A stretch of DNA of 64,000 nt. Origin: Bacillota bacterium. GTDB lineage: Bacteria; Bacillota; Sulfobacillia; JACIYH01. The stretch's first letter is position 1. The number at the start of each line of letters is the position of its first letter. A model generated the notes under the pieces. The model searched no databases and had not been told where the DNA came from. It saw nothing but the letters and a program-made list of their open reading frames with translations. This document shows, piece by piece, positions 31,773-38,875 of this stretch. The DNA lies in assembly GCA_040757085.1 (NCBI GenBank), contig JBFLXJ010000017.1, positions 1-64,000 of the forward strand, read 5' to 3'. A program made the translations under genes and the position numbers.

Positions 31773-33209
31773 ATGGTGGTGTCCCCTGAGGAACTCAGGA
31801 CAGGCGAGCCTGGAGGTGAGGAGTCCCGCAGGGAAGCCGGCAGCGGCACGGCCAGAGGGGCGGCGTCCCCGCAGCCGGCCCTGGCGGGGAAGGTGGTGGT
31901 GGTGGGCATCACCGGCGGGATCGCCGCCTACAAGGCGGTAGAGGTGGTGAGCCGTCTCCGCCAGCTGGGTGCGGACGTGCACGTGGTGATGACCCGCGCC
32001 GCCACCAGGTTCGTGACGCCCCTCACCCTCCAGACGATCTCCGGGAACCCGGTGGTCACCCGCCTGTTTTCCCGGGTGACCCGCTGGAACGTGGAGCACG
32101 TGGCGCTGGCGGAGCGGGCGGATCTCTTGCTGGTGGTTCCCGCCACCGCCAACGTGGTGGGGAAGGTGGCGGCCGGTATCGCCGATGACTTCCTGACTAC
32201 CACCATCATGGCCTGCCGGGCCCCCGTGGTCTTCTGCCCTTCAATGAATTTTCGCATGTACGAGAATCCCGTGTTTCAGGGCAACATGGCCCGGCTCAAG
32301 GAGCTGGGGTACCATTTCATACCCCCCGAGACGGGGTGGCTGGCCGAGGGGACGGTGGGGGTGGGCAGGCTGCCCCAGCCTGCCCGCATCGTGGAGCGGG
32401 TGGTGGCAATGCTTGCTGCGCCGGCGTGCCGGCTCGCTAGCGCTGGAGCGGCCATCCCAAGGGCGGACGAACCTGCGCGGGAGTCCGGGTCGGTCAGAGC
32501 GGCGGAGCCCGCCGGGGACGTCGGGGCTGTGGGTGTGCCGGCGGGCGACCTGGCAGGACGGCGGGTGCTGGTCACGGCCGGTCCCACCCGGGAGATGATC
32601 GATCCCGTGCGGTTCATATCCAACCCCTCATCGGGGAAGATGGGGTATGCCCTCGCCCGCGCCGCGCGGGCCCGGGGTGCCGGTGTGGTGCTGGTGTCGG
32701 GCCCCGTGGAGCTGCCACCGCCGGAGGGAGTAGATCTGGTGCGCGTTACCTCTGCCGAGGAGATGTACCACGCGGTCATGGAGAGGCTGCCGGGCGTTCA
32801 CCTGGTGCTCAAGGCGGCAGCGGTGGGCGACTGGCGTCCCCGCCGGGTGTACCCGTGCAAAGTGAAGAAGGAGGATAAGGCGGGCTGGTTGCTGGAACTC
32901 GAGCCCACCCCTGACATCCTGGCGGAAGTGGGCAGGCGGAAAGGGAACACGGTGGTGGTGGGGTTCGCCGCCGAGACGGACGACATCGACCGCCACGCCC
33001 GGGAGAAGATCGCGCGCAAGAACCTGGATTTACTCGTGGTGAACGACGTGAGCCGGCCCGGGATGGGTTTTGCCAGCGACGACAATAAGGTGACGTTGTA
33101 CTGGCCCGACGGGACCACCGAAGATCTTCCCCTGATGAGCAAGGAGGAACTGGCTCATCGCATCCTCGACCGTGTTGTCCCCCTCCTGGAATCACGCCGC
33201 GGTGAGTGA
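31773..33209 (+). CDS. coaBC: phosphopantothenoylcysteine decarboxylase/synthetase
   Basis: A bifunctional coenzyme A enzyme of 478 aa. The N-terminal CoaC flavoprotein (about 38-215) has GITGGIAAYKA, the active-site region NVEHVALAERAD, and PSMNFRMYENP. A 45-residue Ala/Gly/Pro linker precedes the CoaB domain (from about 265: VLVTAGPTREMIDPVRFISNPSSGKMG, cited for TAGPT and SNPSSGKMG), which includes LKAAAVGDWRP. The N-terminal 35 residues before the flavodoxin-like core are low complexity. It is followed by priA with an eight-base overlap. Confidence 0.95.
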   Translation: MVVSPEELRTGEPGGEESRREAGSGTARGAASPQPALAGKVVVVGITGGIAAYKAVEVVSRLRQLGADVHVVMTRAATRFVTPLTLQTISGNPVVTRLFSRVTRWNVEHVALAERADLLLVVPATANVVGKVAAGIADDFLTTTIMACRAPVVFCPSMNFRMYENPVFQGNMARLKELGYHFIPPETGWLAEGTVGVGRLPQPARIVERVVAMLAAPACRLASAGAAIPRADEPARESGSVRAAEPAGDVGAVGVPAGDLAGRRVLVTAGPTREMIDPVRFISNPSSGKMGYALARAARARGAGVVLVSGPVELPPPEGVDLVRVTSAEEMYHAVMERLPGVHLVLKAAAVGDWRPRRVYPCKVKKEDKAGWLLELEPTPDILAEVGRRKGNTVVVGFAAETDDIDRHAREKIARKNLDLLVVNDVSRPGMGFASDDNKVTLYWPDGTTEDLPLMSKEELAHRILDRVVPLLESRRGE

Positions 33210-35394
33210 ATTGGACGAAGGGGATTACGTCGAAGTTGTCCTGGACGACGCCCCCCCGCGGGCGGGCGGGATGTGGACTTACCTGGTCCCGCCCTGCCTG
33301 AAGGGATGCCTGGCAGTGGGGCAGCGGGTGGAGGTGCCGTTCGGGGGCCGGGTTATGGAAGGCACCGTGGTGGGACCGGGCCGGCCTCCGCACCGGGCGG
33401 AAGTCCGCCCTGTGCTGGGCCTTGTTCCCGGCCGGGTGGCTTTACCCCCGGAACTGGTGAGCCTGGCCCTGGCCCTGGCGGGACTGTACATGTGCCCGCC
33501 GGCAGCGGGACTGCGGGCCGTATCTCCTCCCGCCCTCCGGGTTGAGGAGCGGGGGACGGTACGCCTGCTGGTTCCGGCCGGGGAACTGCAAGTCCGGGTC
33601 GCCTCGCTTCGGTCCCAGCGGGCGAAAAAGCTGGCAGGGATCCTCCTGACCGCGCCGCGCCGGCGGAGTTGGCCGCTCGGGGACCTGGAGGAGGCCTGGG
33701 AGGAAGGGCCGCGCTCGCTGCAGGAGACGCTGCGCATAATGTCCCGGCACGGACTGGTGCAGGTGGTGAGGTCGCGCCGGGGAGTTGCTGCCACCCGGGG
33801 GACCCTGCCGTCCGAGCCCGCGCCTGGCGCGGCCGCGGTGTCGTCCACCCCAGGGGCGGCGCCACGGCGCGAGGCGGCGGAGACGGTGGTGCTCTTGGGC
33901 GGAGATGCCTACGGCCGGGCGGAGATCTACCTGGGCACGGTGGAGGAAGCCCTGTCCCGGGGCGAAGCGGCCATCGTACTGGCACCGGAGATCGAGCAGG
34001 TGGACAGGCTGGCCCGCTGGTGGGGTGCTCGGCTGGGAGGGCGCCTGGCGGTGCTCCACGCCGGGCTCACCCCCGCCCGCAGACAGGCGGCCTGGTTATC
34101 CCTCGTCCGGGGTGGGGCACGGGTGGCCCTGGGCACCCGGTCGGCGGTTTTTGCTCCCGTTTCGACCCCCGCTCTGGTGGTCGTGGAAAGGGAGCACGAC
34201 GACGCCTATAAACAGGAGGAAATGCCCCGTTACCACGCCGCCCGGGTAGCCATGATGCGCCCCGTGGGCCAGGTGGTGCTGGGGAGTAGCACGCCCCGGC
34301 TGGAGACTTTCTTCCGGGCCGAACGGGGGGAGTACCGCCTGCGGGAGTTGCCCCGCCCGCCGCTGCCCCCGGTGACGGTGGTGGACCTGCGGTCGGCGGC
34401 AGGTCGTCCCCCGCGGGGTAACCTGAGCGGCCCCATGAGGGCCGCCCTGGCCCGCGTGGTGGCCCGGAGGGAGAGGGCGGTGCTGTTTCTCAACCGCCGG
34501 GGATATGCGGGGGCCGTGGCCTGCCGGGAGTGCGGCCAGGCCCTGGGATGTCCGCGCTGCCGGGTTTCCCTGGTGTATCACCGCCGTGGATTGATGTACT
34601 GTCACCTGTGCGGCTTTTCCCGTCCCGTGCCCGACTTCTGCCCCTTTTGCGGAGGGCGGGGGCTGGGCCTGTTCGGGGTGGGGACCCAGAAGGTGGAGCA
34701 GGAAGTGGAGCGCTTTTTGCCGGGGACGCCCGTCTTCCGCCTGGATGCGGACGCGGCATCCCGTCCCCAAGAAGTGGAGGCCGTGTGGAAAGCGTTTCTT
34801 GCCCATCGCCCGGCCGTGCTCGTGGGCACCCGGATGGTGGCCGGGGGAGCGGAATTCCCCGATCTGGGCCTGGTGGGGGTGGTCAACGCCGACGTGGGGT
34901 TGCACCTGCCTGACTTCCGGGCGGCGGAGCGGACCTTCTCCGTCCTGTATGACCTGGCGGAGATGGCGGTCGATTGGGGCGGTGAAGTGATCGTGCAGAC
35001 GTATCATCCCGATCATCACGTGATCCGGGCAGCGCGGGCCCACGACTACAGGGATTTCTACCGGGAAGAGATCTGCCTGCGCGAGGAACTCGGGTACCCG
35101 CCCTTTTCCCACCTGGTACGGGTGATATGCGCGGCTCCGGCAGAGCAGGAGGCCCGGCGGGCGGTGGAGGACATCTGCCGGCACCTGCCCCCCGCCCCGG
35201 GGGTGGAGGTGCTGGGGCCCGCGCCAGCGCCGCTCTCGCCGTTGAAGGGCATGTTCCGCTGGGTGGTGGTCTTGAAGAGCCGGGAGCCTCAGGGCGCCCA
35301 TGCTCCCCTGGAGGATGCGCTGGGGCGGGCCCGGGTCGAGGGACGCCGGGGGGTGCGGCTTACCGTGGACGTGGATCCTTATGATATGCTTTAA
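33202..35394 (+). CDS. priA: PriA-like replication restart protein with degenerate ATPase motifs
   Basis: About 730 aa with PriA organisation: an N-terminal DNA-binding domain, helicase core and zinc-binding insertion. The zinc ligands are intact (CRECGQALGCPRC, YCHLCG, CPFCGG), and the C-terminal motif VGTRMVAGGAEFPDLGLVGV is recognisable. Walker A, normally GVTGSGKTE, reads GGDAYGRAE here (about residue 233), with Lys and Thr lost. Walker B DEEH reads EREH (about 328). Such changes are known from actinobacterial PriA, considered helicase-inactive. The start is GTG 33202; TTG 33211 is an alternative. It lies between coaBC and def as in B. subtilis. Confidence 0.9.
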   Translation: MSELDEGDYVEVVLDDAPPRAGGMWTYLVPPCLKGCLAVGQRVEVPFGGRVMEGTVVGPGRPPHRAEVRPVLGLVPGRVALPPELVSLALALAGLYMCPPAAGLRAVSPPALRVEERGTVRLLVPAGELQVRVASLRSQRAKKLAGILLTAPRRRSWPLGDLEEAWEEGPRSLQETLRIMSRHGLVQVVRSRRGVAATRGTLPSEPAPGAAAVSSTPGAAPRREAAETVVLLGGDAYGRAEIYLGTVEEALSRGEAAIVLAPEIEQVDRLARWWGARLGGRLAVLHAGLTPARRQAAWLSLVRGGARVALGTRSAVFAPVSTPALVVVEREHDDAYKQEEMPRYHAARVAMMRPVGQVVLGSSTPRLETFFRAERGEYRLRELPRPPLPPVTVVDLRSAAGRPPRGNLSGPMRAALARVVARRERAVLFLNRRGYAGAVACRECGQALGCPRCRVSLVYHRRGLMYCHLCGFSRPVPDFCPFCGGRGLGLFGVGTQKVEQEVERFLPGTPVFRLDADAASRPQEVEAVWKAFLAHRPAVLVGTRMVAGGAEFPDLGLVGVVNADVGLHLPDFRAAERTFSVLYDLAEMAVDWGGEVIVQTYHPDHHVIRAARAHDYRDFYREEICLREELGYPPFSHLVRVICAAPAEQEARRAVEDICRHLPPAPGVEVLGPAPAPLSPLKGMFRWVVVLKSREPQGAHAPLEDALGRARVEGRRGVRLTVDVDPYDML

Positions 35395-35414
35395 GGGGGT
35401 GGAGGCGGGGCCGT

Positions 35415-36815
35415 ATGGCATCCGGAGAGATAAGGTGTGATCCTGATCCCGTGTTACGAAAGGTGGCCAAACCCGTGCGGCGGGTGAACCGCCAGGTGCG
35501 GGATCTCCTGGACGATATGCTGGTGGCAATGCGCCGGGCGCGGGGGGTGGGGCTGGCGGCGCCCCAGGTGGGTATCTCCCGGCGGGTAATCGTGGTGGAC
35601 GTGGGCGACGGGCCCATCGAACTCATCAATCCCGAGATTGTCCACGCCGAGGGCAGCGAGACAGCGGTGGAGGGGTGCCTGTCCGTGCCAGGGCTGGTGG
35701 GGGAAGTGCCCCGCTATGAGAAGATCACTGTGAGCGGGCTCGACCGGCACGGCCGCCAGATCTGGGTGGAAGCGGAGGGGCTCCTGGCCCGGGCCATGCA
35801 GCACGAGATCGACCACCTGAACGGTATCCTCTTCGTGGATCGGGCCGTGGAGGTGCGCGAGGTAATGCCGGCGCCCCGGGTAGTATTCCTGGGGACGGGG
35901 GAGTTTGCCCTGCCCACTCTGGAGGCGCTGCAGGCAGAATGCGATCTGGTGGCCGTGGTCACCCGTCCGGACCGGCCCCGGGGGAGGGGCCTGGTTCCGG
36001 GGGCACCCCCGGTGAAGGAAAGGGCCCGGGATCTGGGGATCGAGGTGCTGCAGCCCGCCTCCCTGGGGGCGGAGGAATTCCTGGCCGAGGTGCGGGCCCT
36101 GGAGCCGGATTACCTGGTGGTGGCCGATTTCGGCCGTATCCTTCCCGCTTCCCTTCTGGGGGTGGGCAAGGCAGTGGTCAACCTGCATCCCTCGTTGCTG
36201 CCCCGCTGGCGGGGCCCGGCGCCCATCGAGCGGGCCATCATGGCGGGTGACCGGGTGACCGGGGTGACTACCCTGTACGTCTCGGAACGGGTCGATGCGG
36301 GGGACATCATCCTCCAGAAAGAGGTACCCATATCTCCCGAAGATACCGGGGGGAGCCTGCGGGCACGGCTGGCCCGGGAGGGAGCGGAACTGGTGGTGAG
36401 CACGCTGCATCTGCTGATCAAGGGGCAGGCCCCCCGCCGGGCGCAGGACGAATCCCTGGCCACTTACGCCGCCCCCATTACGGCGGCGGACGAGGTGCTG
36501 GACTGGACCAGGCCCGCGGATGACGTGGTAAATCACGTGCGTGCCCTGGCCCCTTCACCGGGGGCACGTACCCGGTGGGCAGGACGTCATTTAAAGGTGG
36601 GGCGGGCCCGCGTGTACACGCCCGCAGCCGCGGCGGTGGGCTCTCCTGGGCAGGTTGTGGCCCACACGGACGAGGGATTTGTGGTGGCTTGCGGCAGGGG
36701 AGCCGTAGAAGTACTGGAAGTGCAGCCGGAAGGGCGACGCTGGATGCCCGCAGCGGACTTCCTGCGGGGTTACCGCTTGCAGGTAGGAGAATTCGTGGGA
36801 AAGGAGGAGACCTGA
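35415..36815 (+). CDS. fused peptide deformylase / methionyl-tRNA formyltransferase
   Basis: One 466-codon frame holds both enzymes of the formyl-methionine cycle. Residues 1-150 are a complete deformylase: GVGLAAPQVG, EGCLSVPG and metal-binding HEIDH. From Met151 onward is a complete Fmt: PAPRVVFLGTGEFALP, HPSLLPRWRGPAPIERAI, and DAGDIILQKE, followed by the C-terminal tRNA-binding domain. No stop or frameshift separates them. The internal ATG 35865 has GGAGG 11 bases upstream (849-853 of that line), so free Fmt could also be made. Elsewhere def and fmt are adjacent separate genes, so this is a fusion by loss of the def stop. Confidence 0.93.
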   Translation: MASGEIRCDPDPVLRKVAKPVRRVNRQVRDLLDDMLVAMRRARGVGLAAPQVGISRRVIVVDVGDGPIELINPEIVHAEGSETAVEGCLSVPGLVGEVPRYEKITVSGLDRHGRQIWVEAEGLLARAMQHEIDHLNGILFVDRAVEVREVMPAPRVVFLGTGEFALPTLEALQAECDLVAVVTRPDRPRGRGLVPGAPPVKERARDLGIEVLQPASLGAEEFLAEVRALEPDYLVVADFGRILPASLLGVGKAVVNLHPSLLPRWRGPAPIERAIMAGDRVTGVTTLYVSERVDAGDIILQKEVPISPEDTGGSLRARLAREGAELVVSTLHLLIKGQAPRRAQDESLATYAAPITAADEVLDWTRPADDVVNHVRALAPSPGARTRWAGRHLKVGRARVYTPAAAAVGSPGQVVAHTDEGFVVACGRGAVEVLEVQPEGRRWMPAADFLRGYRLQVGEFVGKEET

Positions 36816-36816
36816 T

Positions 36817-37515
36817 TTGTACTGGGGATACGGTGTGGACGCCGGCCTCTTGCTGTTCGTGCTGCCCGCGTTTATCTTTTCCCTCTATGCTCAGGCGCGG
36901 GTGACCGCCACCGCCCAGCAGTTTTCCCGGGTGATGGCCTCCGTTGGTAAGACCGGGGCCCAGGTGGCGGAGGAACTGCTCTGGCGGGCGGGAATAAGGG
37001 ACGTGCGGGTGACCAGGACCCCGGGGGTGCTCAGCGACCACTACGATCCCCGCCAGCGCGTCCTGCGCCTTTCCCCCGCCGTGCACGACGGCTTTTCCAT
37101 CACTGCCCTGGGGGTGGCCGCCCACGAGGTGGGCCATGCCATCCAGCACGCGGTGGGTTACGGTCCCCTGGCCCTGCGCAACCGCCTGGTGCCGGTGGTG
37201 AGCTTCAGTTCCCAGGCCGCCATCCCCCTGTTCTTCGTGGGGCTCATCGTGGGATCGGGATCCCTCATGAACCTGGGGCTGATCCTGTTCCTGGGTGCGG
37301 TGGTGTTCACCGCCATCACCCTCCCCGTGGAGTACAACGCCAGCTCCCGCGCCCTGGCCGAGTTGGAGGTAGGGGGATATCTGCGCACGGAGCGAGAAGT
37401 GCGGGGTGCCCGGGCGGTGCTGAACGCCGCCGCCCTCACCTACGTGGCGGCCCTGGCGATGGCGGTGGCCCAGCTGCTGCGCATGTTCATGCTGGCCCGC
37501 AGCCGGGAGGACTGA
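36817..37515 (+). CDS. YugP-type membrane zinc metallopeptidase
   Basis: A 232-residue Zn_peptidase_2 protein. It has a hydrophobic N-terminal segment (LLLFVLPAFIFSLYA), the zinc site AAHEVGHAIQH, and two or three more membrane segments (IPLFFVGLIVGSG, LGLILFLGAVVFTAITL). TTG 36817 follows AAGGAGGAG, one base after the def-fmt stop. The same gene often sits between fmt and rsmB in clostridia. The substrate is unknown. Confidence 0.9.
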   Translation: MYWGYGVDAGLLLFVLPAFIFSLYAQARVTATAQQFSRVMASVGKTGAQVAEELLWRAGIRDVRVTRTPGVLSDHYDPRQRVLRLSPAVHDGFSITALGVAAHEVGHAIQHAVGYGPLALRNRLVPVVSFSSQAAIPLFFVGLIVGSGSLMNLGLILFLGAVVFTAITLPVEYNASSRALAELEVGGYLRTEREVRGARAVLNAAALTYVAALAMAVAQLLRMFMLARSRED

Positions 37516-37516
37516 G

Positions 37517-38875
37517 GTGCCTGCCACCGCTGGCCGGGAACTGGCCCTGCGCATCCTGGGGGAAGTCGAAAAGGGTGCTTACGCCGACGTGGCTTTTGAC
37601 CGCTTGAGCCGCTGGGAGAAAGACCCCCGGGAGCGCGCGTTTGCCCAGGAACTGGCCTACGGGGTGGTACGCCACCTCCTCACAATAGACCGTACCCTGG
37701 CCCGTTACCTGCGCCACCCCCTGGAGAAGTTGCCAGTCCCCATCCGCAACAGTTTACGCCTGGGGGCCTACGAGCTTATGTTCGCCGAGGGGGCGGCCTA
37801 CGCGGCCGTGTCCCAGGCGGTGGAGCTGGCTCGCACCCACGGTCATGCGGGCACGGCCTCCCTGGTCAATGCCGTGCTGCGCAGGGTGGCGCAGGATCCC
37901 CGCCCCCCGGCTCTCGACCGGGAGGCGGGGGACGTGGGTCGCATCTCCCTCACTTACTCTTGCCCGGAGTGGCTGGTGCGGCGGTGGGTTGCCAGGCTGG
38001 GGGCGGGGGAAGCTGAGGCCCTGTGCGCGGCCATCAACCGTACCCCTCTTTTGGTGGGGCGGTGCAATGTCACCCGCATCGGGCCCGCCGAACTGCTCTC
38101 CCGCCTGGAAAAGGAGGGAGTGCGGGCCCGGCCGGGACGTTATCGCCCTGAGTGCTTTGTCCTGGAGGAGAGTCCGGTGCCCGTGGCGGAACTGCTGTCA
38201 TTCCGGGAGGGGTTATTCTCCCTCCAGGACGAGGGGTCCGCCCTGGTGGCACCCGTGCTCGATCCCCACCCCGGCGAGCGGGTGGTGGATGCGTGCAGCG
38301 CCCCGGGCACCAAGACTGCCCACCTGCTGGAACTTATGGGGGGGCGGGGGGAAGTGCTGGCGGTGGACGTCAACCCCCGGCGGCTACGCCTGGTGGAGGA
38401 GGGTTGCATCCGCCTGGGGCTGGGGACGCTGCACACCGTGGCCGGAGATGCCCGGCGCCTGGGGGAACTGTTGCCTGCCGCCTGGGAAGGCCGGGCCGAC
38501 CGCATCCTGGTGGATGCCCCCTGTTCGGGGCTGGGCGCGGTGGCCAGGCGGCCCGACCTGCGTTGGCGGCGCAGTGAAGCCGATCTGCGTACCCTGGCCG
38601 GGTTGCAGGGGGAAATCCTGGACGGGGCCGCCGCTGCCCTGGCCCCGGGGGGAGTGCTCGTCTATTCCACCTGCACTACGGAGCCGGAGGAAAACCAGCA
38701 GGTGGTGGAGTCTTTCCTGGCCCGGCACCCCGAGTTCACGCCGGACCAAATTGCCCTGTGGGTTCCTTCCGCGTTGCGGGAAGAATGCGGGGACGGATGG
38801 TTGCAGCTCTGGCCCCACCGGCACGGTGTGGACGGTTTTTTCATATGCCGGTTGCGCAAGGGTGGAGAGGGATAG
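37517..38875 (+). CDS. rsmB: 16S rRNA (cytosine-967-C5)-methyltransferase
   Basis: A 452-residue RsmB. The N-terminal NusB-like domain (about 1-130) has RERAFAQELAYGVVRH. The SAM domain has DACSAPGTKTAHL, with catalytic cysteines in VDAPCSGLG and YSTCTTEPEEN. The start is GTG 37517, directly after the YugP stop. The rlmN gene that follows rsmB in B. subtilis is absent here; the PP2C gene comes next. Confidence 0.95.
   Translation: MPATAGRELALRILGEVEKGAYADVAFDRLSRWEKDPRERAFAQELAYGVVRHLLTIDRTLARYLRHPLEKLPVPIRNSLRLGAYELMFAEGAAYAAVSQAVELARTHGHAGTASLVNAVLRRVAQDPRPPALDREAGDVGRISLTYSCPEWLVRRWVARLGAGEAEALCAAINRTPLLVGRCNVTRIGPAELLSRLEKEGVRARPGRYRPECFVLEESPVPVAELLSFREGLFSLQDEGSALVAPVLDPHPGERVVDACSAPGTKTAHLLELMGGRGEVLAVDVNPRRLRLVEEGCIRLGLGTLHTVAGDARRLGELLPAAWEGRADRILVDAPCSGLGAVARRPDLRWRRSEADLRTLAGLQGEILDGAAAALAPGGVLVYSTCTTEPEENQQVVESFLARHPEFTPDQIALWVPSALREECGDGWLQLWPHRHGVDGFFICRLRKGGEG

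Follow-up and report, generated by a model that had tools for sequence, protein, structure and literature searches.

Fusions of the genes for peptide deformylase (Def) and formyltransferase (Fmt) have been described in four reference genomes of Exiguobacterium, each of which carries a second Def, and the available text of that study reports that an Escherichia coli def-fmt deletion mutant grows again when complemented with one of these fusions (PMC12690207, Mol Biol Evol 2025). This was the only account returned by our literature searches, which found no other report of a def-fmt fusion. The ordinary operon, for example that of E. coli, encodes the same two families with def before fmt, and differs by the stop codon between the genes. 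A formyltransferase fold is also part of longer multi-domain chains in ArnA and HypX, both recovered as Foldseek matches, which combine it with another partner and another chemistry. In ArnA and HypX, the formyltransferase part is N-terminal.

The window, that is, the whole stretch of DNA analyzed here (64,000 nucleotides), derives from a Bacillota bacterium of the class Sulfobacillia. At 35415–36815 on its forward strand lies one open reading frame, which runs from ATG to TGA (36813–36815) without an internal stop and encodes 466 residues. A GGAGG at 35401–35405, 9 nt 5' of the ATG at 35415, is its likely ribosome-binding site. The fused gene lies between genes of the same orientation, with priA (33172–35394; PriA domains PF18074 and PF17764) directly upstream, and a zinc metallopeptidase (36817–37515; PF04298) directly downstream, followed by rsmB (37517–38875; PF01189, PF01029, and PF22458).

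Residues 1–147 (35415–35855, forward strand) constitute the Def domain, with a match to PF01327 at residues 5–147 (169.4 bits, cut-off 22.8) and to the deformylase equivalog TIGR00079 (161.7 bits, cut-off 103.95). Motifs I–III, defined as in the available text of PMC12690207, are intact: GVGLAAPQ (44–51), EGCLS (86–90), and QHEIDHLNG (129–137). The linker REVMPAP (residues 148–154, 35856–35876) lies between the Pfam matches and is in frame and conserved in both genomes of the same genus, G001 and G002. It leads into the N-terminal catalytic domain of Fmt (residues 155–330, 35877–36404; PF00551), which contains the N-x-H-x-SLLP motif, and further into the C-terminal domain of Fmt (residues 355–454, 36477–36776; PF02911). 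Both matches lie above the Pfam cut-off, and the Fmt equivalog TIGR00460 spans residues 155–459 (280.3 bits, cut-off 201.5). The stretches NLHPSLLP (256–263) and DAGDI (294–298), which we take to be catalytic, are also intact. An AlphaFold2 model of the fused protein, calculated from an alignment of 84 sequences, has a mean pLDDT of 96.5 and a pTM of 0.88, the join included. Foldseek matched the model to Fmt (PDB 4iqf, TMt 0.94) and to E. coli Def (PDB 4az4, TMt 0.83). Sequence matches in the PDB numbered 123, and among the 60 of them that were listed, no single entry spans both the Def and the Fmt domain. The original prediction, made from the window alone, that two complete domains share one frame is borne out; the interval that it gave as about two residues between Def and Met151 of Fmt amounts to three (148–150) by the Pfam match boundaries. 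In domain order, short linker, and completeness of both domains, the protein resembles the Exiguobacterium fusion.

Genes for def and fmt that stand in one frame, separated only by stops, are common. A sample of the phylum contained at least 81 such cases among 382 genomes outside the class, each with at least one stop (manual count). Together with the draft state of the assembly (34 contigs), this would suit a sequencing or assembly error, in which a lost stop or a frameshift mimics a fusion of two ordinary genes. Such an error has practically no chance of being the explanation, because the identical join is present in two congeners and in 43 more genomes of the class, including one-contig assemblies such as G044. 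A search of relatives identified fused def-fmt in 46 of 81 class-level genomes, the own genome included (script and manual count), with 84% identity for G001 and 82% for G002. Between codons 144 and 156, the three congener pairs differ at first, second, and third codon positions by 2/0/6, 2/0/4, and 2/0/7, and this third-position bias, with no change at second positions, indicates that the joining segment is both translated and constrained. The fusion thus withstands the suspicion of a hidden stop codon. Separate adjacent def and fmt genes are found in 25 of the 81 genomes, so that the fusion is dispensable at the scale of the class; 10 are unscorable or have non-adjacent genes (G009, G014, G026, G033, G034, G054, G062, G068, G071, and G078). 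Among the best 80 of 264 relatives' loci, four are fused, and these are the same four loci as in the class genomes.

A separate Fmt might nevertheless be made from an internal start, as had been suggested for an ATG preceded by GGAGG. Both elements are present (35849–35867, forward strand): GGAGG at 35849–35853 precedes the in-frame ATG at 35865–35867 (Met151) by 11 nt, exactly at the start of Fmt, and the gene's own start likewise has a GGAGG. On this basis, Def and Fmt could also, or even mainly, be made separately, with the fusion as a minor or parallel product. The start is, however, not conserved even within the genus, the ATG codon being replaced by CTA in G001 and by GTG in G002, and we rejected the internal start as a conserved feature. 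Of the 46 class genomes with the fusion, 15 lack any ATG, GTG, or TTG in the segment that joins Def to Fmt (manual count from a listing that holds four genomes twice). With comparable spacing, GGAGG or AGGAG precedes 38 of 977 in-frame ATG, GTG, or TTG codons inside the 34 long open reading frames of the window, so that the motif alone is weak evidence; for ATG codons, the count is 5 of 208, possibly including that at 35865. Moreover, free Fmt would still leave Def in fused form only. We consider separate production unlikely: as the internal ATG is not conserved, it is probably not the rule, and the sequence comparison points to a single fused product as the likelier outcome, with some separate Fmt through leaky initiation being possible in this species.

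The host genome (2.67 Mb) yields one match to PF01327 in a whole-genome profile search, which is the fused gene; no second, separate Def was found in this search of the 98.3%-complete genome, in contrast to the Exiguobacterium species, which keep one. PF00551 has two matches, the fused gene and PurN. A further formyltransferase-like gene, with ~38% identity to the Fmt part, is present in G001 (C2:292773–293717) and G002 (C71:3258–4196) and was not found in the host genome. Across the class, a manual reading found no PF01327 gene besides the fusion in 38 of the 46 fused genomes; provided that their assemblies are complete, these must rely on the fused Def. One further Def occurs in G006, G013, G015, G027, G031, G046, G047, and G076; in this counting, G013 has an additional third match below the cut-off, and the two PF01327 matches of G017 belong to one frame. 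These two matches (L114, G017:C61:9681–10307) cover the overlapping profile ranges 2–81 and 56–153, which may reflect an internal duplication in the fused Def.

If the fused Def were inactive or degenerate, the fusion would serve mainly as Fmt. Departures from the Def motifs in some relatives and the presence of a second Def in four of the five fused genomes of family f5 speak for this explanation, which is very improbable for the window genome, where motifs I–III are preserved and the search showed no further Def. Over 56 fused rows (46 from the class and 10 Exiguobacterium-like), the strict motifs I, II, and III are retained in 52, 53, and 47, respectively, and all departures from motif III keep HExDH, except for L124 (HEMEH). 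The Fmt motif N-x-H-x-SLLP is retained in 54 of the 56; L114 and L121 are short pieces. In family f5, loci L113, L118, L122, L123, and L124 depart from the strict motif III with CHE, RHE, SHE, and AHE, in addition to the HEMEH of L124. The second Def of this family is found in G006, G031, G047, and G076, and not in G059, where present perhaps relieving the fused Def.

A row search of the phylum sample (398 genomes) gave unbroken full-length rows for at least 8 of its 16 class members. Among the rows listed for the 382 genomes outside the class, no unbroken def-fmt was observed, although fusions with long linkers would appear there as two rows and may be missed in these counts. A separate sample of 299 genomes of Bacilli (the class of Metabacillus) contained at least 26 unbroken full-length rows; ten of these were fetched and all ten are fused, with linkers of 0–6 residues (script boundaries). 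We refer to these fused rows as Exiguobacterium-like, a label that derives from the published fusion and the sampling of Bacilli. In a tree of 111 rows, from which two short fused pieces, L114 and L121, as well as L142, L148, and L150 had been dropped, the Exiguobacterium-like rows form one clade (node value 100) inside Bacilli (98 and 100), away from the class fusions.

An AU test with 54 of the 111 rows under a simpler model (LG+G4) rejected a single clade of all fused rows (p-AU 0.0034, lnL difference 150.6) and with it a common origin with the Exiguobacterium-like fusion, which indicates at least two origins. The class fusions alone as one clade were not rejected (p-AU 0.475), so a single origin within the class is possible on these sequences; the free tree requires nine changes of fusion state over all rows and contains many weak branches. 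The fusion type is already known from Exiguobacterium, and the class case is an independent variant of it. It is class-wide, usually the sole deformylase, and apparently ancient.

The gene very probably encodes one bifunctional Def/Fmt housekeeping enzyme that arose through loss of the stop between adjacent genes, independently in the class and in Bacilli. At the level of sequence, this reading draws on the single frame, the intact motifs, the conservation, the lack of another Def, and the presence of two or more origins. The co-directional neighbors of the usual priA-def-fmt-rsmB operon would have lost the stop between def and fmt long ago in the class of the window genome and, independently, in Bacilli (Exiguobacterium). 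The C-terminal Fmt part is predicted to formylate the initiator Met-tRNA and the N-terminal Def part to strip the formyl group from nascent chains. Fmt works on Met-tRNA ahead of initiation and Def on the growing chain, so that the two activities do not merely cancel each other. Most likely, the chain would carry two independent active sites made in a 1:1 ratio, with equal supply as the presumed main consequence and advantage. Channeling of the formyl group is not expected, since Met-tRNA and nascent peptide would each be handled at a separate site and at a separate stage.

According to the available part of PMC8712518, E. coli Def uses its C-terminal helix to bind ribosomal protein L22. As originally noted, a helix of this type is absent from the fused protein, where the chain enters Fmt after residue 147, but the absence is not special to the fusion and the helix does not define the family. 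The separate Defs of the class have short or acidic tails, and in none of 25 does the tail start with basic residues of the E. coli kind, so that the helix is missing without fusion as well; on the same count, we rejected helix loss as a consequence of the fusion. A basic tail stretch is seen, for example, in loci of Acidobacteria, and in L145 a cluster of basic residues lies much further along the tail.

Def owes its essentiality solely to the prior action of Fmt. With Def and Fmt in one chain, and this chain the sole deformylase, the two functions would be tied, and the lineage would offer a natural experiment on the importance of their ratio. Reduced susceptibility to deformylase inhibitors is known to arise through loss of fmt, as stated in the available text of PMC12690207. 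It is conceivable, if rather doubtful, that this twice-evolved tethering, as the sole deformylase of one lineage, reflects a different running of the formyl-methionine cycle. In that case, Def would not be anchored by an E. coli-type helix, Def and Fmt would be fixed at a 1:1 ratio and perhaps kept side by side on the ribosome, and any loss or reduction of fmt would affect the essential Def as well. The fused lineage would equally be a natural test of whether deformylation needs a ribosome-binding helix. Two or more independent origins of the fusion suggest that selection or mechanism favors it, though in-frame genes one stop apart are common.

Within the class, the length of the linker between Def and Fmt ranges from a few to ~70 residues, with PPE as a recurring motif in many families. 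The fused locus of G002 (L086) carries an Ala/Gly/Pro-rich insertion of ~42 residues in the C-terminal part of Fmt, which is absent from the window protein. An Ala/Pro-rich stretch of ~45 residues is also observed in CoaBC, encoded in the window at 31773–33209, between its two domains (Pfam matches 42–213 and 260–442).
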